From the NCBI GenBank assembly GCA_020052975.1, contig JAGVOC010000308.1:1-17540 (forward strand): 17,540 nucleotides of DNA, in the 5' to 3' direction. The translations under genes were made by a program, and so were the position numbers. Under the pieces are notes generated by a model. That model was not told the DNA's origin. It ran no database searches and worked only from the letters and a program-made list of their open reading frames with translations. This stretch comes from Desulfobacterales bacterium. Its GTDB lineage: Bacteria > Desulfobacterota > Desulfobacteria > Desulfobacterales > RPRI01. Positions 1 to 16,827 of this stretch are shown one piece after another; position 1 is the stretch's first letter; the number at the start of each line of letters is the position of its first letter.

Positions 1-1270
1 CCAGGTATTCCCGTTCGTTCGGCCCGAGTACTCCCAGAGAAAGACAAATGAGTGTCCAGAGGTGCACTACCGGATAATGACCGCCGTAATGCTCGCTCAG
101 TTCATGAATCTGGGCATGGCAGTTATGGCAGCCGGCAATGCAGTAGTCGGCTCCGGTAGCCTTAATCTGCTCATCTTTCAGTCTTCCGTATTCGAGGCGC
201 TGATCCTTGAACCCCGATTGCAGGAATCCGCCGCCCCCGCCGCAACAGTAATTATTGGATCTGTTGGGATGCATGTCTACAAAATTTTCTTCGCCGACCA
301 CCGATTTCACAACGAATCTGAGATCTTCGGCTATCGGATCGCCATAGCTCTTTCTGACAATCTGGCATGGATCCTGAACTGTAAATTTGATTTTCAGATC
401 CTTGTTCCAGTCGGAGTTGACTTTGAGTCTCCCTTCACGAATCCACTTGGCATAATATTCATAAATGTTCTTAACTTCGAAATTGTGCTCAAGGTTGAAT
501 TTTTTCAGTCCGGCCCGGACTGAGAATGTAACGTGCCCTCACTCGGTGTTGAGAAATATTTTACACCCCAGCTTATTGGCCTGGTTAACGGTTGTCCGGG
601 TGATCTTCTCCCAGGAATTATTGTCCGCAAGGAACAGGCAGTAGTTTTCGCCAGCCCAGCCATGGCTGCCATACGTCCAGTCCGCCCCGGCAAGATGGAG
701 AATTTTCCACAGGGGGACCATCTCATTCGGCTCGGTCACCGGTTCCCTGGAATTCTGATTCAAAAAGAATTCGGCTCCCTGCTTGTCGATGGGAGCCTCC
801 ATATCCGCAAATTCAGGTTGCGCCTCCCTGAATTCCTCGAGCACGTCATTTACGACGAATATGAAATCATCGGGGGTTGCACCCATGGCGCTGGTGCTTT
901 CATTCCGAAGCGCCATATCGCATGATCCGAGGATACCCTTGGGCCGCTGATCCCTTGGCCGCAATCCCCGGGCATTGTAGACAAGCTGAGGAATGTCTAT
1001 CTTCATCGGGCATACATAGATACACCTCTGGCACATCGTACACATCCACGGCCAGTCCGATTTTGCGATTTCATCATCCATACCCAGAGCCGCCATGCGC
1101 AGAAATTTTCTGGGGTCCATTCCATCGAGTCCCGTAGCCGGGCACCCGGACGAACAGGCTCCGCAGGTGAGACAAAGGTTCAGATTCCCGCCGTCAGGGA
1201 TAATTTCCTTAACTTTGTCTATAAACATGCTTTTCTTCTTACCGCCTAGTTTTATTGATTCTTCTGCCAT
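1..1270 (-). CDS. HdrC-HdrB-type Fe-S oxidoreductase subunit, selenoprotein, 3' end cut by window edge
   Basis: Iron-sulfur electron-transfer protein with an HdrC-like ferredoxin domain followed by an HdrB/HdrD/GlpC-like cysteine-rich (CCG) domain; 423 residues are visible. The ATG at 1270 has GGAG 6 nt upstream. Two [4Fe-4S] motifs lie at C33/C36/C39/C43 and C77/C80/C83/C87. After residue 243 there is an in-frame UGA (539-541); the same frame stays open to the window edge and encodes clear CCG-domain sequence: C302, C342-C343 followed by five Gly, C377, C381 and C384. The UGA falls in NTE-U-GH, where relatives carry TECGH, so it is read as selenocysteine 244. A stem-loop lies 16-34 nt after the UGA. 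It is probably the third gene of the operon with hdrA and mvhD, although a 192-bp repeat-containing gap separates it from mvhD. The likely role is the terminal thiol/disulfide or electron-accepting subunit, as in HdrBC, HdrD or BamD. Family assignment is firm; partner and substrate are inferred. Only the extreme C-terminus is probably missing. Confidence 0.88.
505..523 (-). promoter_or_regulatory. Bacterial SECIS-like stem-loop for Sec244 of the HdrCB-like protein
   Basis: Perfect 8-bp stem TCAGTCCG / CGGACTGA around the trinucleotide loop GGC. It lies 16-34 nt downstream of the UGA inside the coding sequence. Bacterial SECIS elements are compact hairpins with an apical G-rich loop roughly 16-37 nt after the UGA, which fits. 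It is not a terminator: it lies within the coding sequence and no U-run follows on the transcript. Confidence 0.75.
539..541 (-). other. Sec-encoding UGA codon in the HdrCB-like gene
   Basis: In-frame TGA on the minus strand, codon 244 of the HdrC-HdrB-like gene. Coding potential continues uninterrupted for 179 further codons with conserved family motifs. The preceding residues NTE and the following GH match the TECGH-type context of CCG-domain proteins, so U replaces C. Confidence 0.87.
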
Positions 1271-1307
1271 AATCTACTCCTTGTTTTTGGCTCTCGCCCA
1301 TTTCTTT

Positions 1308-1437
1308 AGGAGCCGTTAGTAAGTTAGATATTATTTCCTGCGTTTTCCGGCAGGAAATAATATCGTAAACTTACTTATCCCGTTTATCGGGGTTACGAAA
1401 TAACCATTACATTTCTGACCATTTCGTTACGGCTCCT
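1308..1437. repeat. 130-bp nested inverted-repeat element between mvhD and the HdrCB-like gene (MITE-like)
   Basis: The 192-bp gap inside the Hdr operon is filled by a highly structured segment. The outer inverted repeat AGGAGCCGT (1308-1316) / ACGGCTCCT (1429-1437) encloses a large hairpin: a perfect 14-bp stem 1327-1340 / 1351-1364 with a 10-nt loop, extended by AGTAAGTT / AACTTACT at 1318-1325 / 1368-1375. Two small hairpins follow: CCCG-TTTAT-CGGG (1379-1391) and GGTTA-CGAAA-TAACC (1391-1405). TTA occurs on both sides (1306-1308 and 1437-1439), consistent with a short target duplication. It could be a miniature inverted-repeat element or an RNA-processing/attenuation structure within the operon mRNA. 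No ORF is supported here. Confidence 0.6.
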
Positions 1438-1462
1438 TATGCCGTTTTTGATATTCGGATAA

Positions 1463-1888
1463 CTATGTTATTTTTTTATAGCGGCTTAAAGGGTTAGGCC
1501 CAAGCTTCTTTATATGTTCGGTCATCTCCTTTGCGTAAGCAGCAAAGGTGGGACCTTCACCTGAGGAAAGATTATACATTCTTACCCTGTCCCCCTCAAG
1601 ACCAATTTCTTCAAGCAGTTTCTGCACATGCATAACCCGTTCGCGGGCCCTTAAATTGCCTTCATTATAATGGCATGCTCCCTCCATGCAGCCAACCGCA
1701 TAAACTCCGTCAGCGCCTCGCTGGATTGCTCCGAGGAGATGCATAACATCGACTTTTCCTGTGCACGGCACACGGATTATTTTAATATTCGAGGGATAAT
1801 CGAGTCTCATGGAACCTGCCAGGTCCGCAGCCGAATATCCTCAGTAATCACAACAAAAAGTTATGATTGTCGGTTCAAATTCTGACAT
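1463..1888 (-). CDS. mvhD: MvhD/FrhD-type [2Fe-2S] electron-transfer subunit, selenoprotein
   Basis: Small cytoplasmic iron-sulfur protein of 141 residues that in Hdr complexes relays electrons between HdrA and a partner oxidoreductase such as a hydrogenase or formate dehydrogenase. The ATG at 1888 shares one base with the hdrA stop (TAATG) and has a strong GGAGGT 5 nt upstream, inside the end of hdrA (1894-1899). Codon 16 is UGA (1841-1843), read as Sec: residues 11-16 are FCCDYU, followed by GYSAADLAG. This matches the MvhD hallmark CCxxC-x-Y-x-x-ADLAG, with the third Cys replaced by Sec. Further conserved cysteines are C42 (PCTG), C67 and C72 (GCMEGACHY). A reading starting at the next Met (1810) would lose the N-terminal motif and has no such ribosome-binding site. 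The gene is translationally coupled to hdrA. It resembles VhuD of methanogens and BamF, both known Sec-containing homologues. Identification is very sure; the partner enzyme is unknown. Confidence 0.93.
1811..1826 (-). promoter_or_regulatory. Bacterial SECIS-like stem-loop for Sec16 of MvhD
   Basis: GGACCT-GGC-AGGTTCC folds into a 6-bp stem with one bulged T and a GGC loop, 15-30 nt after the UGA. An alternative fold, CTGC / GCAG around GGACCTG, is possible. Distance and apical GG match bacterial SECIS. The loop sequence equals that of the HdrCB-like SECIS candidate. Confidence 0.65.
1841..1843 (-). other. Sec-encoding UGA codon in mvhD
   Basis: In-frame TGA at codon 16. It falls exactly on the third Cys of the conserved CCxxC motif of MvhD/FrhD proteins, and the frame continues through all downstream family motifs. 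Confidence 0.93.
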
Positions 1889-4800
1889 TACATACCTCCC
1901 GCCATCAAGGCGTCTATTTTACACATTATCTGGTCATCTTCATAATAGTTTAACTGGATTGTTTGTCTTGGACAGACACCGGCACATATCCCGCATCCGT
2001 GGCAGAGAGCTTCATCTATTTGAATTAAACCCTCTTTTTCATTAAATACCGGGACCCCGAACGGGCAGGACCGCACACATGTAAGGCACTTTACGCAATG
2101 ATCGGTGTCAACCTTTGCGGTAATTGCCGAAAGCTTGATTTCCGATTTCGATAAGAAAGTAGTCGCTCTTGAAGCCGCAGCCTTTGCCTGGGCAATTGTC
2201 TCGGATATCAGCTTCGGCGCGTGGGCCATGCCGCATAGAAATATTCCGTCACCCGGCATGTCGACAGGTCTCAGCTTGACATGCGCCTCGATAAAGAAAC
2301 CTTCCGTATTCCGTCCGAGCTTCATGATTCCGCTCAGCTCTTCCGTGTCCTGAGCAACCACACCGGCGCTCAAAACTACCGCATCGGCTTCTATTTCAAG
2401 CTGTTTCCGGAGGATATGATCGTTTACCGAAACGACCAGCCCTTCGGGCGAACTTTTGACTTCAGGAGGAGTCTTCTCATCAAAGCGAATGAAAATCACA
2501 CCGAGCTTTCTTGCCTCGGTATAGTAATCTTCGAGGAGTCCGTACGTTCTCATGTCCCTGTAAAGGACATATACCATAGCCTCGGGATTCCGCTTTTTAA
2601 TAAGCAGGGCGTTCTTTACGGCATTCTGGCAGCAGATTCGCGAACAGTTCTGGTTTTTCTCATTTCTTGATCCGACGCACTGGATCATGACGACACTTGA
2701 GAGTCCGGATGCGCCCTTTTCCTCGAGGAGATCCCCGAGCTGAATCTGAGTCATAACGCGGCTGTCTTCACCGTAGAGATATTCCTGCGGCTTGTATTCA
2801 TTGGCGCCTGTTGCAACGATAATTATTCCATGTTCAATGTTTTGTTTTTCTTTTCCGGGGCCTGCCACTACATCCGTATTGAAGTTTCCCTTGTATCCAC
2901 CGAATCCCACAATGCGGGCATCGGTTAAGACATTGATTTTTCCGCAGCTATTTACCTCATCAGTAAGCTTTTCAATATATGCTCTTATATCCTTTCCTTC
3001 TATAGTATGATGAAGCTTTAAGGCCATTCCGCCAAGGGTTTTCTCTTTTTCAACCAGGACAACCTCAAACCCCTGTTTGCCGAGTCCAAGAGCCGCATTC
3101 ATTCCCGCAACTCCGCCGCCTATGACAAGGGCGCGCTTGTTTACAGGAATAACTCTTTCCGTAAGAGGTTTCAATGTTCCGACTCTCGCAACAGCCATGC
3201 GGACAAGATCCTTGGCCTTTTGAGTGGCAAGATCAGGACTCTTTGAGTGAATCCACGAATCCTGGTTTCTTATGTTGGCCATTTCAAACAGATACCTGTT
3301 AAGCCCGCAGGCTTCAAGAGTCTCCATGAACATCTTCTCATGGGTCTTGGGACTGCATGAGGCGACAACAAGGCGGTTTAACTTATGCTCTATTATTTTT
3401 TCCTTTATCTTGTCCTGTGTATCCTGGCTGCAGGTGAAAAGATTCTCGTCGGAATAAACGACATAAGGAAGTTTTGAGGAATATTCCTTAACCTCAGGAA
3501 CATTTACAACTCCCCCGATGTTTATACCGCAGTTGCAGACAAAAACCCCGATCCTCGGAACTTCTCCTTTTACGTCTATCTCTTCAGGAACCTCGCGGAA
3601 TTTGGTGTCGGTGCCCCTTGCTTCGGCCAGCCCGACTCCTGCTTCGCACGCGGCAGCTCCTGCTTCTGTTACAGAGCTTGGAATATCTTTGGGCCCTTGG
3701 AAAATCCCGCAGGTGAAAACCCCCGGACGGGAGGTTGCCACAGGCGCAAACGGATCAGTATCAACAAACCTGTACTTGTTCAGGTTAATATCAAGGCGTT
3801 TTGCAAGTTCCACGGAAGTATCCGGCACCTGAAGGCCTACCGAAAGAACAACCATGTTAAAGGTCTCTTCCATGATTTCGCCGCTTTCATCGGCAAAACG
3901 CAGACAAAGATCCCCTGTCTCAGGTACCTCGCTTATCGTGTGGACTCTTGCCTTTACGAAACGGACTCCGTCCTTGTCTTTAGCGCGCAGGTAATACTTT
4001 TCGTAATCCTTGCCGAAGGTCCTGATATCCATATTGAATATGGCGCAGTCAAGCTCGCCGTGCGAGTGCTCTTTTGCTATCATGGCATCTTTTATCGCGT
4101 ACATACAGCACACCGAAGAACAGTAGCCGTTTCCGCATTTGTTCGTATCTCTTGAACCTATGCACTGAAGCCATGCAATTTTTTTAGGATCGGTCTTATC
4201 GGAAGGACGCTCAAGATGACCCATTGTCGGTCCTGATGCGCTTAAGATTCTTTCAAACTCAAGGCTTGTCAGAACATTCGGGCTGACCTTGTACTGGTAA
4301 AATTGAGCAAGGGCAGAAGGATCATAGACGTCATTTCCTGAGGAAAGAATCACTGATCCCACCCTGATATCTTTTTCAGCCGTTTTCTGGGTATGGTCGA
4401 TTGCTTTTGCAAGACAGGCATTAACGCACTGGTAGCACTCCGAACATATTCCGCATTTTAAGCATCTTTCCGCTTCAAGGCGGGTTTCTTCTTCACTGTA
4501 TCCGAGGGCAACTTCGTTAAAGTTCCCGTCCCGTTCTTCAGGAGAAATCCGCTTCATCGGAAGACGCTCTTTTTTCTCTTCGAGAGACGTATGGGGCTTT
4601 TCAAAACTCCAGTCATTATCCCTGCCCTCTTTTAAATCGCGTCCATTTAAATAACGGTCTATGCTCTCTGCTGCCTCCTTACCGCTCGCAACGGCATCAA
4701 CTACGGATTTCGGCCCGTATACAATGTCGCCTCCCGCAAAAACCCACGGAACCGGAGTCTGGAAAGTAAGTAAATCGGATTCGAGCCCGCCTCTTTTTGT

Positions 4801-6324
4801 AACGGGAATATTCTGCTCTTTTGCAAAGGAAAGTTCGGCAGACTGCCCGATTGCAACTATAACAGTATCGGCATCAAGTGTTTGCAGGACATTTTCATCG
4901 TACTTGGGGTTAAAGCAGCGGTTGTCGTCGAATACGCATGTGCACTGCTTGAACTGGATGCCTGTGACTTTTCCGTCTTTTCCCGCAAAATTTTTAGGCC
5001 CGAAACAGTTTACTATCTGTATATTCTCTTCAAGAGCCTCTTCTATCTCATAATCCCATGCAGGCATTTCATCCCGCGATTCGAGGCAAACCATCGATAC
5101 ATCGGCTGCGCCAAGACGTTTGGCAGTTAATGCCACGTCAATGGCGACGTTCCCGCCGCCGACAACCACAACTTTTTTCCCGAGAGCAACTTTTTTATTC
5201 AATGCCGCGTCTCTTAAGAAAGCGACGCCGGGCAGAACCCCCTCCATATCTTCGCCGGGAACACCTAATTTCCGGCTGCCATGCAGACCGGTCGCAAGGA
5301 ATACGGCCTTGAACCCGTCGGTCTTCAGGCTTTCAAGGGTGATATCCTGGCCGAAAGTCACACCGGTCCTGATTTCAACTCCCATTTTCTCAATTATTTT
5401 TATTTCGGCTGCAAGCTCGTTTCTCGGAAGGCGGTATGCCGGAATTCCAACGGCCATCATCCCGCCGGCAACCGGCAGTTTTTCGAATACTGTTACCTGA
5501 TAGCCTTTCAGGGTAAGATAGTATGCGGTTGTCAGGCCTGCAGGACCGGAACCGATTACAGCAATCTTCTCAGGCCTCTTTTCCGCAACTTGCGGGACAA
5601 AAGGAGATTCTCCCCCGGAATCATGGTCAGCCAGAAACCTGTGAAGATACTGGATGGAAAGGGGTTTATCAACATCACTCCTTGTACAGACTCCTTCGCA
5701 GGGATGGTGGCAAACACGGCCGCAAACTCCCGGGAAGGGATGCTCCTGCTTGAAAAGTTCAAGAGCTTCCCTGTATTTGCCGGTGTTGATAAGCGCGATA
5801 AAACCCTGGATGCTCACATGGGCAGGGCATGTTGCCTTGCACGGGGCTGTTCCCCTCTTGCTTATTCCGTAAGCGCCGGGGATTGCCTGTGCATACTGTT
5901 TATATATCGCCTTTCTCTTTGAAAGACCCTTGTCGTATTCATTGGGGACTTCGATGGGACAAACCTTGGCACAATCTCCGCAGCTTGTACACTTTGACAT
6001 ATCGACAAAACGGGCATTCTGCCTCACTTTTGCCGTGAAATTTCCCGGATCGCCCTCAAGAGTCAGAAGCTCGGTATTTGTTAAAAGCTCGATGTTAAGA
6101 TGCCGGCCGACCTCGACCAGTTTGGGTGAGATAACTCACATCGCGCAGTCATTGGTTGGAAATGTCTTGTCGAGCTGAGACATCAGCCCGCCTATGGCAG
6201 CGGATTTTTCCACAAGATAAACGTAATAACCCGATTCGGCAAGGTCAAGCGCTGACTGCATCCCGGCAATACCGGCGCCGACAACCATAACTGACCCGCT
6301 TTTATTCTCTTTTACAGACCCCAT
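1888..6324 (-). CDS. hdrA: HdrA-type FAD/Fe-S oxidoreductase with inserted GltD-like NAD(P)H domain, selenoprotein
   Basis: Flavin-based electron bifurcating or confurcating core subunit of 1478 residues, about twice the usual HdrA. The ATG at 6324 has AGGAG 5-6 nt upstream. Layout: FAD motif GAGIAG (16-21); hallmark [11 protein letters not shown] with in-frame UGA as Sec63 where relatives have Cys or Sec; 4Fe-4S at C112/C115/C118/C122; then a GltD/NfnL-like insert of about residues 158-560 (Cys cluster C162-C213, FAD motif GSGPAG 258-263, NAD(P)H motif GGGNVAID 389-396, AGGD 530-533); a Cys cluster C621-C637; and the rest of HdrA unit 1. A second HdrA-like unit starts at about 924 ([13 protein letters not shown]) with GGGVAG at 1069-1074. 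It lacks the TFPTNDC segment. Two C-terminal ferredoxin motifs follow (C1410-C1420, C1441-C1451). First gene of the operon, overlapping mvhD by one base. The GltD part implies NAD(P)H as a redox partner (inference). Confidence 0.93.
6103..6120 (-). promoter_or_regulatory. Bacterial SECIS-like stem-loop for Sec63 of HdrA
   Basis: CTGGTCG-AGGT-CGGCCGG forms a 7-bp stem (two G-U pairs) with an AGGT apical loop, 16-33 nt downstream of the UGA. The loop resembles the AGGU of the E. coli fdhF SECIS, and the GG sits about 24 nt after the UGA, inside the usual window. Confidence 0.72.
6136..6138 (-). other. Sec-encoding UGA codon in hdrA
   Basis: In-frame TGA, codon 63, between NDCAM and VISPKLVE. 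HdrA proteins carry Cys or Sec at this exact place (methanogen type DC-S-I-C/U-I-L-x-P-K). The 36 codons after it, before the next possible start, are recognisable HdrA sequence, so this is recoding and not two separate genes. Confidence 0.93.
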
Positions 6325-6502: not shown

Positions 6503-6890
6503 CCCTTATTATACAAAACCATGAAAAGCTGTTAAAAAGCAGGGTAAAACAGGTTTTATTCAACATTTACCATATATTATTATAAGAGCCTTTATTGATA
6601 AAGTTAGTAAAAAGTCAGAATTTGCCCTTTTATGTCATTCCCGCGAAAGCGGGAATCCAGTCTTTTCAATTAGTTCTGGACTCCCGTTTTTACGGGAGTG
6701 ACGACTTTTTGACTTTTTACGAAGGTATCTTTATTAGATAATGCGAAATAGTTTTTTTGTCAAAGAAACAGGTAAGTGTCAAGGATTTAATAGCCAAAAT
6801 TAATTATTTTTCATATATAGTATTATGATACAAGTCAGATTTCAAAGTAAGGACAAGAAACCGTGAACTTCAAACCAGATATTTAATCAA
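6503..6890. other. Divergent intergenic spacer between hdrA and hrpA
   Basis: AT-rich spacer with no supported gene. It contains the miniature element at 6597-6729, annotated separately. Some promoter-like AT-rich hexamers occur, such as TATAAT on the minus strand near 6580 and TATGAT on the plus strand near 6835. None has a convincing -35 partner, so no promoter is called. hrpA lacks an obvious Shine-Dalgarno in the last 20 bp of the spacer. Confidence 0.5.
6597..6729. mobile_element. Miniature inverted-repeat element, copy A (TIR GATA...GTAAAAAGTC)
   Basis: The ends are inverted: left GATAAAGTTAGTAAAAAGTC (6597-6616), right gactttttacgaaggtatc (6711-6729). TTTATT flanks both sides (6591-6596 and 6730-6735), as expected of a 6-bp target duplication. 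Inside are two hairpins in inverted order: ATTCCCGC-GAAA-GCGGGAAT (6638-6657), with the very common GTCATTCCCGC...CCAG repeat context, and ACTCCCGT-TTTT-ACGGGAGT (6680-6699). The whole is a large cruciform palindrome. Its right end is identical to that of copy B near 13972-13990. Confidence 0.7.
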
Positions 6891-9800
6891 ATGAAGAAAC
6901 GCATATTATTAATTAAAAATATTGAATTCAGGCTCCGGCAAGCGATGCGTACCGACAGGCATATTATTCGCCGTGAAGTCGCAAAACTGAAATCTGCCGG
7001 CTTGGAAATGTTGCCTGAAAAGGATTTTGATAAAAAGATGGGGTCGGTTGAAAAAAAACTTGCCGTTTCTATCAACAAGAAAATATTGAGAAAAACGAAT
7101 GTTCCGAAACTTGTTTTTGATTCAGCCCTTCCGATAACGGCCAAAAAAAATGAAATAATCGATTCAATTTCAAAAAACCGGGTTATCATAATTTCAGGTG
7201 AGACCGGCTCGGGTAAAACCACACAAATTCCAAAATTCTGCCTTGCCGCAGGAAGGGGAATAAATGGCAAAATCGGCTGCACCCAGCCAAGAAGAATTGC
7301 GGCTATAACAGTTGCTGCCCGTATCGCCGAAGAGCTTGGAGAAGAGTCTGGAAAATCGGTCGGTTATAAAATCCGTTTTACGGACAAAACCAGCAAAGAC
7401 TCCTATATAAAGATAATGACCGACGGGATTCTTCTCGCCGAGGCTCATAATGACCCGTATCTTAATGAATATGACACAATAATTGTCGATGAGGCCCATG
7501 AAAGAAACCTGAATATCGACTTTATTCTCGGTGTGCTGAAAACTCTTCTGGCAAAAAGAAGAGATCTTAAGCTTATAATAACGTCGGCCACGATCGATAC
7601 TGAGAAGTTTTCAAAGGCTTTTGATAATGCCCCGATAATAGAAGTTTCAGGCCGGATGTTTCCCGTTGAGGTACGTTATCTGCCGGTTGATCCGGACCTT
7701 GAAGAAACCGGGGAACAGACTCATGTTGACCTTGCTGTCGAAGCCATTGACAGACTTTTGAAGGAAAACCGCACCGGTGATATTCTTCTTTTTATGCCGA
7801 CAGAGCAGGATATCCGTGAAACCTCGGAGTTGCTTGAAGGAAAAAAATACAGAGCCGTCGAAATTATCCCGCTTTTCGCAAGGCTCCCGGCTTCGGAGCA
7901 GTCAAGGGTCTTTTTACGTCTGCCGGTAAGAAAGATCATTGTCGCAACCAATATCGCTGAAACATCAATCACCATACCCGGCATAAGATATGTCATAGAC
8001 ACGGGCCTTGCCCGGATATCGCAGTATACGCCAAGATCGAGAACAACTGCCCTGCCGGTTGTATCCGTTTCAAAAAGCAGTGCGGACCAGCGAAAAGGAA
8101 GATGCGGCAGGGTTGAAAACGGAATCTGCATACGACTCTATTCAAAAGAAGATTATGATGCACGCCCCCTTTTTACGCCTCCTGAGATCCTGAGATCAAA
8201 CCTTGCAGAAGTAATTCTAAGAATGATCGCGTTGAATCTGGGAGACATATCGGCTTTTCCCTTTATTGACCGCCCTGCCGTAAAAAGCGTTAAAGACGGA
8301 TACGAGATTCTCCTGGAACTGGGAGCCATTGAACCGGAAATAGAAAATAAATCAGGATTCGCCCTCACACACAACGGAATGATCATGGCTTCACTCCCGA
8401 TTGATCCGAGACTGTCACGAATGCTGATTGAAGCGCAAAGAAGAGGCTGCATTCAAGAGATAACTATATTAGCTGCCGCTTTAAGCTGCCAGGATCCAAG
8501 GGAAAGACCCGCTGATAAGACAGGCGAAGCAGCCCGGGCTCACGCGCTCTTTTCAGACCCGTTGTCCGACTTTATAACCCTTCTTAATATATGGAACAAG
8601 TTTCACGAGGTTTCAGACACCGAAAAAACCACTGCCGCCTCAAAAAGATTTTGCAAGGCGAATTTTCTTTCTTTCAGAAGAATGAAGGAATGGCGCGACA
8701 TATACTCGCAGATTAAGGATATCCTGAATGAAAACGGCATGAAAAGCCAAAAAAAGGAGTTGGAAACAGATGAAAGCGGTGAGAATAAATCCTGCATATA
8801 CAGCTATTTATATACGGTCATTCATAAATCAGTCTTAAGCGGTTTTCTTTCCAATATCGCAGTAAAAAAGGAAAATAATATCTTTTCGGCAACAAAGGAA
8901 AAATCGGTTATGATCTTTCCCGGATCGGGACTGTTCAAAAATCCCGGAACCTGGATTGTAGCGGCTGAAATGGTGGAAACTTCAAGGCTCTTTGCAAGAA
9001 CTGCGGCATCCGTAGACAGTTCATGGATTGAAGAGATAGGAAAAAGCCAGTGCAGATATTCCTATTACAACCCTCACTGGGAAAGAAACAGGGGAGAAGT
9101 TGTGGCTTCCGAGCAGGTGAGCCTTTACGGGCTGATAATTGTTCAGGGGCGTCCTGCGGCATATGGCAGGATAAACCCTGCGGAAGCGTGGGATATATTC
9201 ATAAGGGATGCCCTTGTTGAAGAGGATGTTAAAACACCTTTACCATTCATTGAGCATAACAGAAAATTAAAGGAAGAGATAAGGGAGATCGAGAACAGGG
9301 TCAGAAGAAGAGATATCCTTGTGGGCGACGATGTTTTGATCGAATTTTACAGGGAAAAACTTCCCGGTATTTACGACATCAGAACCCTTGGAAAATACAT
9401 AAAAGAGATGGGAGGTGACCGGTTTTTGCGCATGGCAAAAGAAGATTTTCTTCGATACATGCCCGATGAGGAGGAAATATCCCTTTATCCCGACAAAATC
9501 GCACTTGGAGAGAATGCCTTTGAATGTCTTTACAGTTTTGATCCGGGAAAACCTGCAGACGGAATAACCGTTAAAATACCCTCTTCTGTTGCCTCAACAG
9601 TTCCGCCCGAAACAACAGACTGGCTTGTGCCTGGATTATTAAGGGAAAAAATTAATGCGCTCATAAAAGGACTTCCCAAGGAATACAGGAAGAGGCTGCT
9701 TCCCCTGTCAAAGACCACCGAAACCATCCTTTCTGAAATGCCCCGGCAAAAGACTTCGCTTATGACAGCCCTTTCAGAATTTATTTATCATTCTTTCGGA

Positions 9801-10868
9801 GTCGATATTCCCGCAAGCGCATGGCCCGGTGAAAGACTTCCCGACTATTTAAAAATGCGTATCTCAATAACGGGAACAAAAGGAGAAGAAATATACTCCG
9901 GAAGAGATAAAGCCATGTTAAAAAACACATTATTGGCACCTGCAGATAATGAATATTTTAATTCGGCACGGGAAAAATATGAAATAACCGGCATCACAAA
10001 ATGGGATTTCGGGGATATTCCCGAAAAAATCATTATCAAAGGGAGCGATAAATACGAGTGGCTTTATTTCCCCGGCCTTGAAAAGGATGAAGGCTGTGTA
10101 AATCTGCGGATCTTCAATTCGGAAACAGAATCTGTTAAATCTCATCGGGAAGGAATAATCGCCCTGTTTTCAATTGTTTTTGAAAAGGATTTAAAGTCTG
10201 TAAAAAAACTGCTTCTATTGCCCAAAAAGATGAATGAATATACCGTTTTTTTCGGTGGTGAAAACAAGTTTAACAGACTGCTGTACAAAAGCACTGTAAA
10301 AGATCTTTTGAATGTTAATATAAGAACAAAAGAGGCTTTTGAGTCACGCGCCCTGTTTGTGCTGCAAAATATTTTTGAGTATGGGCAGAAAAAAACTAAA
10401 AACATAGCGCCTGTCTTAAAAACCTGCCATGAAACAAGAGAAACTCTTTTGAACCTGAAAGCAAAATGCTTACCAAACAGAGAGGCCTCCGATCTTCTTT
10501 TCAGGCTCGAACAGGATCTTAATAAATTAATACCCGAAAACTTCATGGAACTGTACGAAGAAGAACGCCTTTTAGATCTCCCCAGATACATTCAGGCCGT
10601 TTCAGTCAGGGCACAAAAGGGAATAATTGATCCTGAAAAGGAGAAGGCCAGATCAGACGGGCTTGAAATACATACCACCCGTCTGGATAAACTGCTGAAA
10701 AGCCTTTCTCAGCTTGTTTCTGATGAAAAGAAAAAAGCTGTTGAAGAATATTTCTGGCTTATCGAAGAATACAGGGTTTCCCTTTTTGCGCAGGAGTTGA
10801 AAACCCCGGTTCCGATATCAGCAAAAAGGCTGGATAAAAAGTTCAAAGAGATTGAAAGAATGGTATGA
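6891..10868 (+). CDS. hrpA: ATP-dependent RNA helicase HrpA (DEAH box)
   Basis: Large cytoplasmic DEAH-box RNA helicase of 1325 residues, close to the roughly 1300 of E. coli HrpA. Motifs in order: Walker A GETGSGKT (103-110), Ia TQPRRIAA (131-138), DEAH (200-203), SAT (232-234), motif V TNIAETSIT (353-361), and motif VI QRKGRCGR (400-407) with the Cys typical of HrpA. The helicase-associated (HA2/OB) region follows, then a long C-terminal region of the HrpA type (DUF3418-like). In E. coli HrpA has been linked to rescue of stalled ribosomes; in this organism that role is by homology only. The start at 6891 is the first Met in frame, with no clear Shine-Dalgarno. Met19 (6945) is an alternative, also without a good site. 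The gene is preceded by a miniature-element-rich spacer and followed 95 bp later by miaA. Confidence 0.95.
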   Translation: MKKRILLIKNIEFRLRQAMRTDRHIIRREVAKLKSAGLEMLPEKDFDKKMGSVEKKLAVSINKKILRKTNVPKLVFDSALPITAKKNEIIDSISKNRVIIISGETGSGKTTQIPKFCLAAGRGINGKIGCTQPRRIAAITVAARIAEELGEESGKSVGYKIRFTDKTSKDSYIKIMTDGILLAEAHNDPYLNEYDTIIVDEAHERNLNIDFILGVLKTLLAKRRDLKLIITSATIDTEKFSKAFDNAPIIEVSGRMFPVEVRYLPVDPDLEETGEQTHVDLAVEAIDRLLKENRTGDILLFMPTEQDIRETSELLEGKKYRAVEIIPLFARLPASEQSRVFLRLPVRKIIVATNIAETSITIPGIRYVIDTGLARISQYTPRSRTTALPVVSVSKSSADQRKGRCGRVENGICIRLYSKEDYDARPLFTPPEILRSNLAEVILRMIALNLGDISAFPFIDRPAVKSVKDGYEILLELGAIEPEIENKSGFALTHNGMIMASLPIDPRLSRMLIEAQRRGCIQEITILAAALSCQDPRERPADKTGEAARAHALFSDPLSDFITLLNIWNKFHEVSDTEKTTAASKRFCKANFLSFRRMKEWRDIYSQIKDILNENGMKSQKKELETDESGENKSCIYSYLYTVIHKSVLSGFLSNIAVKKENNIFSATKEKSVMIFPGSGLFKNPGTWIVAAEMVETSRLFARTAASVDSSWIEEIGKSQCRYSYYNPHWERNRGEVVASEQVSLYGLIIVQGRPAAYGRINPAEAWDIFIRDALVEEDVKTPLPFIEHNRKLKEEIREIENRVRRRDILVGDDVLIEFYREKLPGIYDIRTLGKYIKEMGGDRFLRMAKEDFLRYMPDEEEISLYPDKIALGENAFECLYSFDPGKPADGITVKIPSSVASTVPPETTDWLVPGLLREKINALIKGLPKEYRKRLLPLSKTTETILSEMPRQKTSLMTALSEFIYHSFGVDIPASAWPGERLPDYLKMRISITGTKGEEIYSGRDKAMLKNTLLAPADNEYFNSAREKYEITGITKWDFGDIPEKIIIKGSDKYEWLYFPGLEKDEGCVNLRIFNSETESVKSHREGIIALFSIVFEKDLKSVKKLLLLPKKMNEYTVFFGGENKFNRLLYKSTVKDLLNVNIRTKEAFESRALFVLQNIFEYGQKKTKNIAPVLKTCHETRETLLNLKAKCLPNREASDLLFRLEQDLNKLIPENFMELYEEERLLDLPRYIQAVSVRAQKGIIDPEKEKARSDGLEIHTTRLDKLLKSLSQLVSDEKKKAVEEYFWLIEEYRVSLFAQELKTPVPISAKRLDKKFKEIERMV

Positions 10869-10876
10869 TGAGGCGA

Positions 10877-10998
10877 GAAGCGTGAATCGTAGATCGTGAA
10901 GCGTGAATCGAACAACGAACCACGAACGACGATCAACGAAGTACGAAATTCGAGGTACGATATATGAACCGGAAACCAGAAACCACAAACCACAAACC
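10877..10998 (+). repeat. Degenerate short-repeat block running into the start of miaA
   Basis: The spacer after hrpA consists of loosely repeated units. gaagcgtgaatcg occurs exactly twice (10877-10889 and 10898-10910), followed by cgaac/acgaac/acgaag variants, then by AACCGGAAACCAGAAACCAC-type units that continue into the miaA coding sequence to about 10998. The same aaccagaaacc vocabulary recurs near 14775-14815 and 16848-16913. There is no fixed period, so it is not a CRISPR or a simple satellite. Confidence 0.65.
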
Positions 10999-11917
10999 TT
11001 TTATCATTGTTATCTGCGGGCCAACAGGTATAGGCAAAACCCTGGCAGGAATCGAAGTGGCAGAGGCTTTCGGCGGTGAAATCATCAGCGCGGATTCAAT
11101 GCAGGTATACAAATACATGGATATTGGCACCGCAAAGCCAACGCATGGGGAAAGAGAACGCGTCTTTCATCATATGATCGACATCATCGAACCGGATGAA
11201 GATTTCAGCGCCGCACGATTCGCGTCTCTTGCAATTGAGACAATCAGAAAACTGAGTGAAAAAAAGACTGCCCCGTTTGTTGTGGGCGGAACCGGTCTAT
11301 ATATCAAAGCCCTTACTCACGGTCTTTTTGACCCGGGTGCAATCCGCGCGGATGCAAAAGTGCGCCTTAAAAAAGAGGCCGAACTTCACGGTACAGAGTT
11401 TTTGTATAACCGCCTTAAAAAGTCCGATCCGGTCTCAGCAGACAGAATTCATTCCAACGACATATTCAGGATAATAAGGGCTTTGGAAATATTTGAAACA
11501 ACCGGAACCGCCATTTCTGAATATCACGGAAAGCATGGGTTTTCAGAAAGAATGTTCAATGTCTTAAAAATAGGTCTTACAATTGAGAGACAAGCCCTCT
11601 ATGACCGTATTGAAAAAAGGGTTGACTCTATGATAGAAGCCGGTTTTATTGACGAAGTAAGGCGGCTTATTGAAATGAATTACACGGCAGATCTGAAATC
11701 GATGCAATCGATAGGCTACCGCCATATTGTTGATTACATTGCAGGCCGCATACAGCTTGATGAAACTGTCCGGATTTTAAAGCAGGATACAAGAAGATTT
11801 GCAAAGCGGCAAATGACATGGTTTAATGCCGATCCTGAAATTATCTGGATAAAACCGGATCAGGTAAATGAGATTAAAATGTTAGCCGGCAGTTTTCTCA
11901 AGGCAACAGGCAGATAA
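10964..11917 (+). CDS. miaA: tRNA dimethylallyltransferase MiaA
   Basis: Transfers a dimethylallyl group to N6 of A37 in tRNAs that read UNN codons. It has 317 residues, normal for the family. Visible motifs: P-loop GPTGIGKT (19-26), SADSMQVYKYMDIGTAKPT (42-60) for substrate binding with the conserved Asp, GGTGLYIKAL (108-117), and a C-terminal RRFAKRQMTWF segment that contacts tRNA. The ATG at 10964 has GAGGT 7 nt upstream; no other Met precedes the P-loop, so this start is well supported. The first 12 or so residues (NRKPETTNHKP) are encoded by the aaccagaaacc repeat block and precede the beta-strand PFIIVICGP, so they look like a repeat-derived extension. The spacing after hrpA (95 bp) and before the synthetase (33 bp) allows co-transcription. 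Confidence 0.96.
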   Translation: MNRKPETTNHKPFIIVICGPTGIGKTLAGIEVAEAFGGEIISADSMQVYKYMDIGTAKPTHGERERVFHHMIDIIEPDEDFSAARFASLAIETIRKLSEKKTAPFVVGGTGLYIKALTHGLFDPGAIRADAKVRLKKEAELHGTEFLYNRLKKSDPVSADRIHSNDIFRIIRALEIFETTGTAISEYHGKHGFSERMFNVLKIGLTIERQALYDRIEKRVDSMIEAGFIDEVRRLIEMNYTADLKSMQSIGYRHIVDYIAGRIQLDETVRILKQDTRRFAKRQMTWFNADPEIIWIKPDQVNEIKMLAGSFLKATGR

Positions 11918-14826: not shown

Positions 14827-16827
14827 ATGTACAGATATCTGTTCAGCCCGATCAAAATCAACAAGCTTGAAATCAAAAACAGGATTGCATACCCGGCTCT
14901 CGGACTGCTCTATTCCTACGACAGCAAACTTAATGACCGCTACTACAACTATTTTAAGGAAAGAGCCGAAGGGGGCACTGGCCTTGTTACTGTCGGCCCA
15001 GTCGGAATAGATTTTATAGGTTCCGGAATTCTTGCTCTTTCGCTGGCAAACGATGAGGCGATTCCGTCGTTTCAAAAGCTCACCTCAATAATTAAAAACG
15101 GGGGAGCACGCGCCTGGGTTCAGCTTTTCCACGCTGGAGCATATTCTCATCCGTTTCTGATCGACGGTAAAGATCCGATGGCTCCGTCTCCTCTTTATTC
15201 AGTATATTCAAAAGCCACTCCGCGCGAAATGTCAAAAGACGATATAAGGGAGGTTCAGGAAGCTTATGCAAAGGCTGCTTTAAGGGCTATTGAGGCCGGA
15301 TTTGACGGAGTCGAAATTCTTGCTTCAGCCGGTTACCTTATCACTCAATTTCTTTCGCCCCTTAAAAACAAAAGAACCGACGAATACGGGGGGAGTTTTG
15401 AAAACAGGGTCAGGTTCCCAAGGGAGGTCATCGAACTCGTACGGAAACGGGTAGGCCCGGGTTATCCTCTCACAATAAGAATAGCGGGCAATGATTTTGT
15501 GGCCGGAAGCAACACGGATACCGAGACTCCTGAATTTGCAAAGGTTTATGAGAAGGCTGGAATAGATGCAATCAATGTAACCGGAGGATGGCACGAATCT
15601 AAGGTGCCCCAGCTTCCGATGGAGCTTCCGAGGTCGGGCTATTCATACCTTGCTCTTAATATCAAAAAAGCGGTATCCGTCCCGGTCATGGCGTCAAACC
15701 GTATAGCCGACCCGGAAAGCGCCGAAAAAATAATCAGGGACGGCTATGCGGACATGGTCAATCTCGGGCGGGTTCTTATCGCCGATCCCGAATGGCCGTT
15801 GAAGGCCTTTGAAGGGAGGGCGGATGAAATCAGGCCCTGCGTTGCCTGCTCCCAGGGATGCACCGACGAGGTATTCAGCGGACGGCCTGTTTTCTGCGTC
15901 GGAAATCCGCAAGCCGGCTTTGAAGCCGAACGGAAAATAGAAAAAACGAAAAATCCGAAGAACGTCATGGTTGTCGGCGCCGGAGCGGCAGGGCTTGAAG
16001 CTGCCGTAACAGCGAAAAAGGCGGGACATAATGTAGAGCTTTACGATAAGGACGACGATATCGGCGGCCAGCTATGGATTGCAAGCGCTCCTCCCCACAA
16101 GCAGGAGATCAGGGAATTTATCCGGTACTACAGGGCAATGGTCAGTAAATATATGATTCCTTTGTTCCTGAATACATGCGTGGACAAGGAGTTTATCGCA
16201 AAAAAGAAACCCGGCCATATTATTATTGCCGAAGGAGCTGAAGCGGCTGTTCCCCCGGTGGAGGGAACGGATGATCCGCTTGTTCTGTCTGCATGGAAGG
16301 TTTTAAAGGATAATCCCCCGCTGGCAAAAAACATCGCCATCATTGGCGGTGGCGCGGTTGGACTTGAAACAGCACTTTTTATAGCCTCGAAAGGGACAAT
16401 ATCTCCTGAAATACTCTATTTCCTTTTTGCCTATGAAGCAGAAAGTCCAGAGCGCCTTAAGGAGCTCATGTTCAAAGGCTCATGTTCCGTAACTGTATTC
16501 GAAATGCTCCACAAGATAGGAAAAGATATTGGAAAATCAACAAGATGGATCGTTTTCGATAACCTTAAAAGATACGGCATAAAAACCATTACAGGAGCAA
16601 AGGTATCTTCTGTAAGAAACGGAAAGGTAATTTTTGAGAAAGACGGCAATAAAGAGGAGATGCAGTTTGGAAATGTAATTCTTGCGTCCGGTTCACGGTC
16701 GGTAAAAAAGCTTTCGGCTGAAGTCGCGACTCTCGGAATTCCGTTTACGACGGTAGGCGACTGTATCACACCGGGTCGGATAAACGATGCCATACACGGC
16801 GGCTTCCTCGCAGCATTAAAGATTTGA
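14827..16827 (+). CDS. NADH:flavin oxidoreductase / 2,4-dienoyl-CoA reductase-type FMN/4Fe-4S/FAD enzyme
   Basis: Soluble enzyme of 666 residues built like E. coli FadH, enoate reductases and BaiCD. An N-terminal FMN-binding TIM barrel (about 1-335) includes QLFHAGAYSHP (99-109) and probable catalytic residues Tyr170 (SAGYLITQFLSP) and His256 (GWHES), matching FadH Tyr166/His252. A 4Fe-4S site C338-x2-C341-x3-C345-x11-C357 has the family spacing. The FAD/NAD(P)H-binding half carries GAGAAG (384-389) and a second dinucleotide motif GGGAVGLE. It would reduce activated C=C bonds of enoyl- or dienoyl-CoA-like substrates with NAD(P)H. The start has AGGAG 6 nt upstream. It lies next to acyl-CoA synthetases on both sides, which supports a role in fatty or other acyl-CoA metabolism. 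Exact substrate not determinable; all cofactor residues look intact. Confidence 0.93.
   Translation: MYRYLFSPIKINKLEIKNRIAYPALGLLYSYDSKLNDRYYNYFKERAEGGTGLVTVGPVGIDFIGSGILALSLANDEAIPSFQKLTSIIKNGGARAWVQLFHAGAYSHPFLIDGKDPMAPSPLYSVYSKATPREMSKDDIREVQEAYAKAALRAIEAGFDGVEILASAGYLITQFLSPLKNKRTDEYGGSFENRVRFPREVIELVRKRVGPGYPLTIRIAGNDFVAGSNTDTETPEFAKVYEKAGIDAINVTGGWHESKVPQLPMELPRSGYSYLALNIKKAVSVPVMASNRIADPESAEKIIRDGYADMVNLGRVLIADPEWPLKAFEGRADEIRPCVACSQGCTDEVFSGRPVFCVGNPQAGFEAERKIEKTKNPKNVMVVGAGAAGLEAAVTAKKAGHNVELYDKDDDIGGQLWIASAPPHKQEIREFIRYYRAMVSKYMIPLFLNTCVDKEFIAKKKPGHIIIAEGAEAAVPPVEGTDDPLVLSAWKVLKDNPPLAKNIAIIGGGAVGLETALFIASKGTISPEILYFLFAYEAESPERLKELMFKGSCSVTVFEMLHKIGKDIGKSTRWIVFDNLKRYGIKTITGAKVSSVRNGKVIFEKDGNKEEMQFGNVILASGSRSVKKLSAEVATLGIPFTTVGDCITPGRINDAIHGGFLAALKI

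Follow-up and report, generated by a model that had tools for sequence, protein, structure and literature searches.

The window analysed here is the whole stretch of 17,540 nucleotides of contig JAGVOC010000308.1 (assembly GCA_020052975.1), which belongs to a Desulfobacterales bacterium. Three consecutive minus-strand frames, hdrL, mvhD and an HdrD-like gene, lie at its beginning. According to the reading of the open reading frames, each contains exactly one in-frame TGA, as the original prediction had stated. Judged by the comparison of related loci, it is close to certain that the three UGA codons are read as selenocysteine (Sec). The cluster is real and conserved, and is a variant of the selenium-rich operons described since 2006. 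The genes, their Sec codons and the predicted bacterial selenocysteine insertion sequence (bSECIS) hairpins are the following:

1888-6324, minus strand: hdrL, encoding an HdrA-GltD-HdrA fusion flavoprotein of 1478 residues (Moorella-type HdrA) with one predicted Sec at residue 63
6136-6138, minus strand: Sec UGA of hdrL, context TNDCAM-U-VISPK; non-standard residue X at the same column in 9sfi_A
6103-6120, minus strand: predicted bSECIS hairpin of hdrL, 7 bp, loop AGGU
1463-1888, minus strand: mvhD (FlpD family), encoding 141 residues with one predicted Sec at residue 16
1841-1843, minus strand: Sec UGA of mvhD, context FCCDY-U-GYSAAD; X at the same column in 9sfi_K
1812-1826, minus strand: predicted bSECIS hairpin of mvhD, 6 bp, loop GGC; indicated by conservation, with no energy support
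2-1270, minus strand: HdrD-like gene (HdrC-HdrB fusion; DsrK/TmcB/HmcF/GlpC-like), first 423 codons with one predicted Sec at residue 244, running off the window edge
539-541, minus strand: Sec UGA of the HdrD-like gene, context NTE-U-GH (UGH motif); homologues have Cys at this column
505-523, minus strand: predicted bSECIS hairpin of the HdrD-like gene, 8 bp, loop GGC

The ATG of mvhD and the stop codon of hdrL share one base (TAATG). The full-length HdrD-like frames of relatives contain 433-450 residues (n=6), and the window copy is cut at 423 codons. A divergent hrpA gene borders hdrL, and an hrpA-type gene with the same Pfam domains occupies the same place in the syntenic relative L017. 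The first gene had been named hdrA: the HdrA family modules are indeed present, but the protein is an HdrA-GltD-HdrA fusion and not a plain HdrA.

Evidence for selenocysteine at the three UGA codons

The related loci are the best 80 (L001-L080) of a longer scan of genome contigs with an HdrL alignment. They are not a census, and the proportions hold for these loci only. Neighbouring genes were counted on the hdrL strand, within 600 bases for mvhD and within 6 kb for hdrD, metV and metF. At the HdrL column, 64 of the 80 loci have UGA and 16 have Cys. A downstream mvhD was detected in 69 loci, with UGA in 63 and Cys in six; both proteins carry Sec in 57 of these 69, which makes this the commoner form of the pair. 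None of the 57 loci with a Sec HdrL and a detected mvhD contains a Cys MvhD. On the other hand, six of the 12 loci with a Cys HdrL and a detected mvhD retain the UGA in mvhD. The states thus look ordered, as if HdrL loses Sec before MvhD. A downstream hdrD is present in 15 loci, with 16 genes in total, and each of these loci has Sec in HdrL, MvhD and HdrD. The sole Cys hdrD found lies upstream of hdrL in L077, beside a Cys HdrL and a Cys MvhD. The original prediction considered an operon with Sec in all its visible subunits unusual. This view finds no support: 15 of the 80 loci carry all three Sec genes, and such an operon, in a hydrogenase setting, was published in 2006 (PMC1794560).

In the protein databases the Sec column is uncovered in 118 of the 120 listed HdrL homologues, the other two having Cys, and in 113 of the 120 listed MvhD homologues, the rest being six Cys and one sequence that aligns Arg. 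In the uncovered homologues the predicted protein mostly begins 3' of the Sec column. The loss of these residues in automatic annotation, which had been anticipated, is therefore real. Since the Sec HdrL-MvhD pair is the commoner form in the loci, most of the publicly available predictions for this central carbon-pathway complex are truncated. The HdrD column is Cys in 120 of 120 listed homologues; a Sec HdrD would be split in two in the databases, so this figure shows only that non-Sec forms of HdrD have Cys at the column. The UGA codons are placed on conserved Cys columns, as predicted.

The three window hairpins begin 15-16 nucleotides past the TGA, with loops AGGU (hdrL), GGC (mvhD) and GGC (HdrD-like gene), and the apical GG lies 21-25 nucleotides past the UGA in all of them. 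The compact stem-loop at SECIS distance that the original prediction described is thus present at each gene, for mvhD by conservation and not by energy. Matches under the bit-score limits (1000 for hdrL, 140 for mvhD, 500 for hdrD) and sites too near contig ends were dropped from the hairpin and codon analyses, and codon entropies were calculated only from rows carrying the majority residue. The loop is AGGT in 67 of 67 hdrL Sec places, GGC in 64 of 64 mvhD Sec places, and GGT or GGC in 16 of 17 hdrD Sec places, with GAC in one. Paired cells amount to 99% (hdrL), 100% (mvhD) and 92% (hdrD) in distinct Sec rows, against 71% (n=16), 67% (n=7) and 62% (n=1) in Cys rows.

The same contrast is visible at the codon level. 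Codons +5 to +10 of hdrL have zero entropy in 67 distinct Sec sequences and 0.9 to 1.6 bits in the 16 Cys genes, and codons +5 to +8 of mvhD are invariant in 64 Sec sequences and reach 0.7 to 1.5 bits in seven Cys sequences. Over codons +4 to +11 the mean entropy in hdrL is 0.20 bits in Sec genes (1.32 outside this segment) against 1.36 in Cys genes (1.23 outside). The corresponding values are 0.37 (1.32) against 1.11 (0.96) for mvhD and 0.48 (0.88) for the Sec hdrD, where the single Cys place gives no contrast. The freezing of synonymous sites in the Sec loci is strong evidence for what would be a functional RNA element. Together with the Cys columns, it supports the predicted Sec in all three visible subunits.

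Folding energy is a weak test for a SECIS element, and conservation was for this reason used as the criterion. The mvhD hairpin is absent from the minimum-energy fold of its 48-nucleotide piece, which is no more stable than shuffled sequences (z +0.68). In the synonymous-codon control the mean z of mvhD gave no signal (-0.07 at Sec places and -0.11 at Cys places), so that the energy test is negative for this gene and conservation is what points to its putative hairpin. The mean z was -1.13 (Sec) against -0.51 (Cys) for hdrL, and -2.02 (Sec) for hdrD, the lone Cys hdrD having -1.24. The hairpin pairs are frozen and do not covary; compensatory changes consequently lend almost no support. Rfam gave no window match at the gathering score, and at a relaxed threshold four matches in 1200-1500 (three miRNA families and PhrS) were far under their gathering scores.

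The machinery for Sec insertion was compared between 15 genomes with related loci (10 reached via a Sec hdrL, five via a Cys hdrL) and 14 control genomes. Matches over the cut-off were obtained for selB in 15 of 15 related genomes against two of 14 controls, for selA in 14 of 15 against one of 14, for tRNA-Sec in 12 of 15 against five of 14, and for selD in all seven related genomes tested, with one UGA within the best match of each, against two of 14. Every one of the 14 control genomes also gave tRNA-Sec matches with E values up to 0.001, and only those well over the cut-off were therefore used (69-77 bits, 12 genomes). The genomes of the two closest relatives are G001 and G002, which hold loci L001 and L017. 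In G002 selA, selB, selD and tRNA-Sec are all over the cut-off; in G001 this applies to selA, selB and selD, the tRNA-Sec match not being over it.

Probable association with metV and metF

Of the 59 related loci whose downstream sequence is 2.2 kb or longer, 55 have both metV and metF there (BLASTP with the L017 copies), and Pfam gives MetV (PF12225) and MetF (PF02219) in the four loci tested (L017, L065, L062 and L041). The original prediction of an Hdr operon is therefore incomplete. L067 has all three Sec genes together with metVF. L017 has the order hdrL-mvhD-hdrD-metV-metF, with UGA in the first three genes. Its identity to the window is 91% for hdrL, 96% for mvhD and 76% for hdrD (window 2-1270 against L017:9631-10899). 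The window has the order hdrL-mvhD-hdrD, so that metV and metF would be expected just beyond base 1. Because these two genes follow in 55 of 59 loci, the unit is very probably an Hdr-type methylene-tetrahydrofolate (methylene-THF) reductase cluster of Desulfobacterota origin in the order hdrL-mvhD-hdrD-metV-metF, the last two genes of which would lie just outside the window.

Gene arrangements vary among the 43 loci whose downstream sequence reaches 5.5 kb or more. A Sec hdrL and a Sec mvhD directly followed by metV and metF are found in 21, and the same set with a Sec hdrD past metF in seven. A Sec hdrD stands between mvhD and metV in five, and at both positions in one. A Cys hdrL with a Sec mvhD and metVF occurs in four, and Cys in both with metVF in three. 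L077 is without metV or metF and L080 has metV only. Besides any downstream metVF, a metF-like match lies upstream of hdrL, on either strand, in 28 of the 80 loci; the one at L041:8988-9857 was checked with NCBIfam. In L062, two UGA-containing hdrD genes (7367-8635 and 10525-11787) flank metVF, which gives four predicted selenoproteins in one stretch.

The architecture of HdrL resembles that of a known system. The first HdrA module is interrupted at residues ~157-650 by a GltD/Fer4_20 insert, in which Fer4_20 accompanies a GltD/Nfn-like domain for NAD(P)H and FAD; a second HdrA module covers residues ~921-1474. The HdrA of the Moorella thermoacetica methylene-THF reductase has the same layout, with its C-terminal module numbered 922-1487 (Kremp et al. 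2022, PMC9430772). The MetFV-HdrABC-MvhD set of this organism and the related Sporomusa ovata cluster share with the window an HdrA of ~1480 residues with a GltD insert and two TrxR-like modules, MvhD and the E/K signature in the first module, and with the relatives of the window MetV and MetF (PMC9430772, PMC5861303). By spacing, E691/K745 of the window correspond to the bifurcation signature E696/K750 of Moorella, and they are invariant in alignment A1 (10 sequences). The window differs in having three Sec genes and an HdrD/DsrK-like fusion with the UGH motif, optional, in place of HdrB and HdrC. Sec in Moorella HdrA and FrhD was listed by Zhang et al. (2006, PMC1794560), for copies that may or may not be the MetVF-linked ones.

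Related sets are described in other organisms. The HdrL of Desulfobacterium autotrophicum HRM2 is likewise an Hdr/glutamate synthase fusion adjoining mvhD, and Sec is reported in hdrL1, hdrL3, hdrD4 and four mvhD (Strittmatter et al. 2009, PMC2702500). Unlike the present cluster, the Sec hdrL, Sec mvhD and Sec hdrD4 are not placed in one locus in the available part of that paper, where an hdrL-metF link is not given either. The structure 9sfi of the Protein Data Bank has X at the HdrA column (DCAMX, 9sfi_A) and at the MvhD column (YQXGY, 9sfi_K), and by inference X would be Sec. It is different in being, to judge from its molecule names, a methanogen-type HdrABC complex, and in having a second X in MvhD. 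Excerpts of further studies mention Sec-containing Hdr, methyl-viologen-reducing hydrogenase and Fe-S oxidoreductase in one deltaproteobacterium (a 2021 study of metagenome-assembled genomes, PMC8318568), hdrABC-mvhD-metVF in Chloroflexi (2017, PMC5736913) and putative MetFV-MvhD-HdrABC sets in eight Proteobacteria genomes (a 2018 survey, PMC6085437). No publication in which the three-Sec set is joined to metVF was found in the open-licence literature, covered mostly at listing level.

Several points weigh against the assignment to a methylene-THF reductase. The sel genes and metVF were seen in relatives, not in the genome of the source organism itself, and the counts come from the 80 best loci of a longer scan, not from a complete sampling. 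The identity of hdrD to L017 (76%) is lower than that of hdrL and mvhD, and the gene order downstream could therefore differ. Since hdrL-mvhD-metV-metF stands without hdrD within 6 kb in 28 of the 43 long loci, hdrD would be an optional partner. Mapped by residue spacing, the second signature of Moorella, E1204/K1246, corresponds to Q1195/K1237, which leaves the second flavin site of HdrL without the Glu. In Sporomusa (PMC9430772), MetVF was not recovered together with the Hdr-like proteins on purification, contact being seen only in pull-downs; NAD(P)H was not oxidised by crude extract in the presence of methylene-THF, nor was co-reduction of NAD(P)+ or ferredoxin observed.

The HdrD-like subunit and alternative readings

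The HdrD-like protein combines Fer4 and CCG domains with Sec in a UGH motif, as is characteristic of the Fe-S oxidoreductase-like (GlpC) selenoproteins, and has the HdrB-like two-domain fold. Foldseek and VIA-align also matched racemases and binding proteins, ranked under the HdrB/EtfD/LutA group; these were regarded as common-fold matches. HdrB itself carries two complete five-Cys motifs for non-cubane clusters. Only the C-terminal one is complete in the HdrD-like protein, with C302, C342, C381 and C384 invariant and C343 nearly so in alignment A2 (35 sequences). In the N-terminal half of the same alignment, C211 and the Cys at residue 244 are invariant and C236 nearly so, which makes three positions and not five. 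No structure papers on DsrK were found in the literature search. A rather improbable suggestion is that Sec replaced an iron-sulfur cluster in this subunit: the N-terminal half would have lost its five-Cys motif, the remaining Cys211, Sec244 and mostly Cys236 would lie near the first non-cubane site of HdrB, and a selenol-thiol pair facing the single non-cubane cluster would form a disulfide-reducing site. If true, a three-Sec methylene-THF reductase would couple the Wood-Ljungdahl pathway to a disulfide pool of proteins or small molecules.

The place of this protein in the complex can be questioned. It is possible, with a probability well short of even, that it is a separately used DsrK/GlpC-like disulfide reductase beside the complex and not a part of it. 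The gene precedes metVF in some loci and lies ~2 kb past metF in others, and 30 of the 43 long loci have no hdrD within 6 kb. A dispersed palindromic repeat separates mvhD from hdrD in the window, with a related palindrome at the corresponding intergenic place in L017, and the genomes G002 and G006 each contain two UGA-containing hdrD copies. On the other hand, hdrD stands between mvhD and metV in seven of the 15 loci with a downstream hdrD (hdrL strand only), all three proteins carry Sec in these 15 loci, and the lone Cys hdrD (L077, upstream) accompanies a Cys HdrL and a Cys MvhD. The two copies per genome and the low identity of hdrD to L017 may reflect paralogue replacement or gene conversion within the operon.

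The repeat (1309-1436) is a strongly folding nested palindrome (z -7.8 for the 192-nucleotide intergenic region) with two parts, of ~53 and 80 bp, that recur separately. In the genomes of the two closest relatives, scoring of 40 candidates apiece gave at least 48 and at least 51 matches. Two less closely related genomes contain 24 and 12, and three further ones contain none. Another intergenic palindrome lies upstream of hdrL (6633-6720), with the motif ATTCCCGCGAAAGCGGGAAT recognised by eye; palindromes of its type are common in bacterial genomes.

It is improbable that the operon encodes, in place of a methylene-THF reductase, a hydrogenase- or formate-linked HdrA-FrhD-GlpC complex like that known in Syntrophobacter fumaroxidans. 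This organism and Desulfotalea psychrophila possess a glpC-hdrA-frhD-frhG-frhA selenoprotein operon (Zhang et al. 2006, PMC1794560; PMC13188914), in which the same three families, HdrA, FrhD/MvhD and a GlpC-like Fe-S oxidoreductase, contain Sec and are accompanied by bacterial SECIS elements. A 2026 review speaks of a four-selenoprotein-gene operon, with FrhA included, and gives the Sec motifs as CxxU for HdrA and MvhD and UGH for the Fe-S oxidoreductase-like family (PMC13188914, available part). The window, moreover, stops short of the next gene. However, their operon starts with glpC and has the hydrogenase genes frhG and frhA, whereas the window HdrA is fused to GltD, which provides its own NAD(P)H domain as in the Moorella MetVF-linked HdrA. 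Likewise, metV and metF follow in the 55 of 59 loci already mentioned, in a scan not aimed at hydrogenase or formate dehydrogenase genes.

The idea that the UGA codons are plain stops or sequencing or assembly errors in broken genes has next to no probability: automatic gene calls do begin 3' of them, but the data contradict it, with the UGA shared by 64 of 80 related loci and hairpins frozen at synonymous sites. Equally negligible is an organism-wide reading of UGA as Trp or Gly, to which the UGA inside long frames might point; each gene has a single UGA, at a Cys column, and TGA ends other window genes (hrpA at 10868 and an OYE-like gene at 16827), so that it is no general sense codon here.

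Proposed working and significance

In the proposed working of the methylene-THF reductase cluster, each gene would insert one Sec at its UGA by means of SelB, tRNA-Sec and the bSECIS hairpin directly downstream, as the conservation of the hairpins suggests. HdrL would take electrons from, or pass them to, NAD(P)H through its GltD domain, and split or merge them at its flavin sites. The electron relay linking HdrL with MetVF and with another partner (a disulfide substrate or the quinone pool) would be formed by MvhD and the HdrD-like protein. Both steps are modelled on the homologues of Moorella and Sporomusa. In a complete acetyl-CoA oxidiser the flow would run mostly from methyl-THF to methylene-THF, and in the reverse direction during autotrophy. 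The Sec residues would be expected to quicken redox steps at conserved Cys positions.

The cluster joins two bodies of work that were not found joined, the selenoprotein-rich Hdr operons and the Hdr-type methylene-THF reductases. It opens to test the selenium dependence of electron flow in the methyl branch and the role of the UGH selenocysteine.

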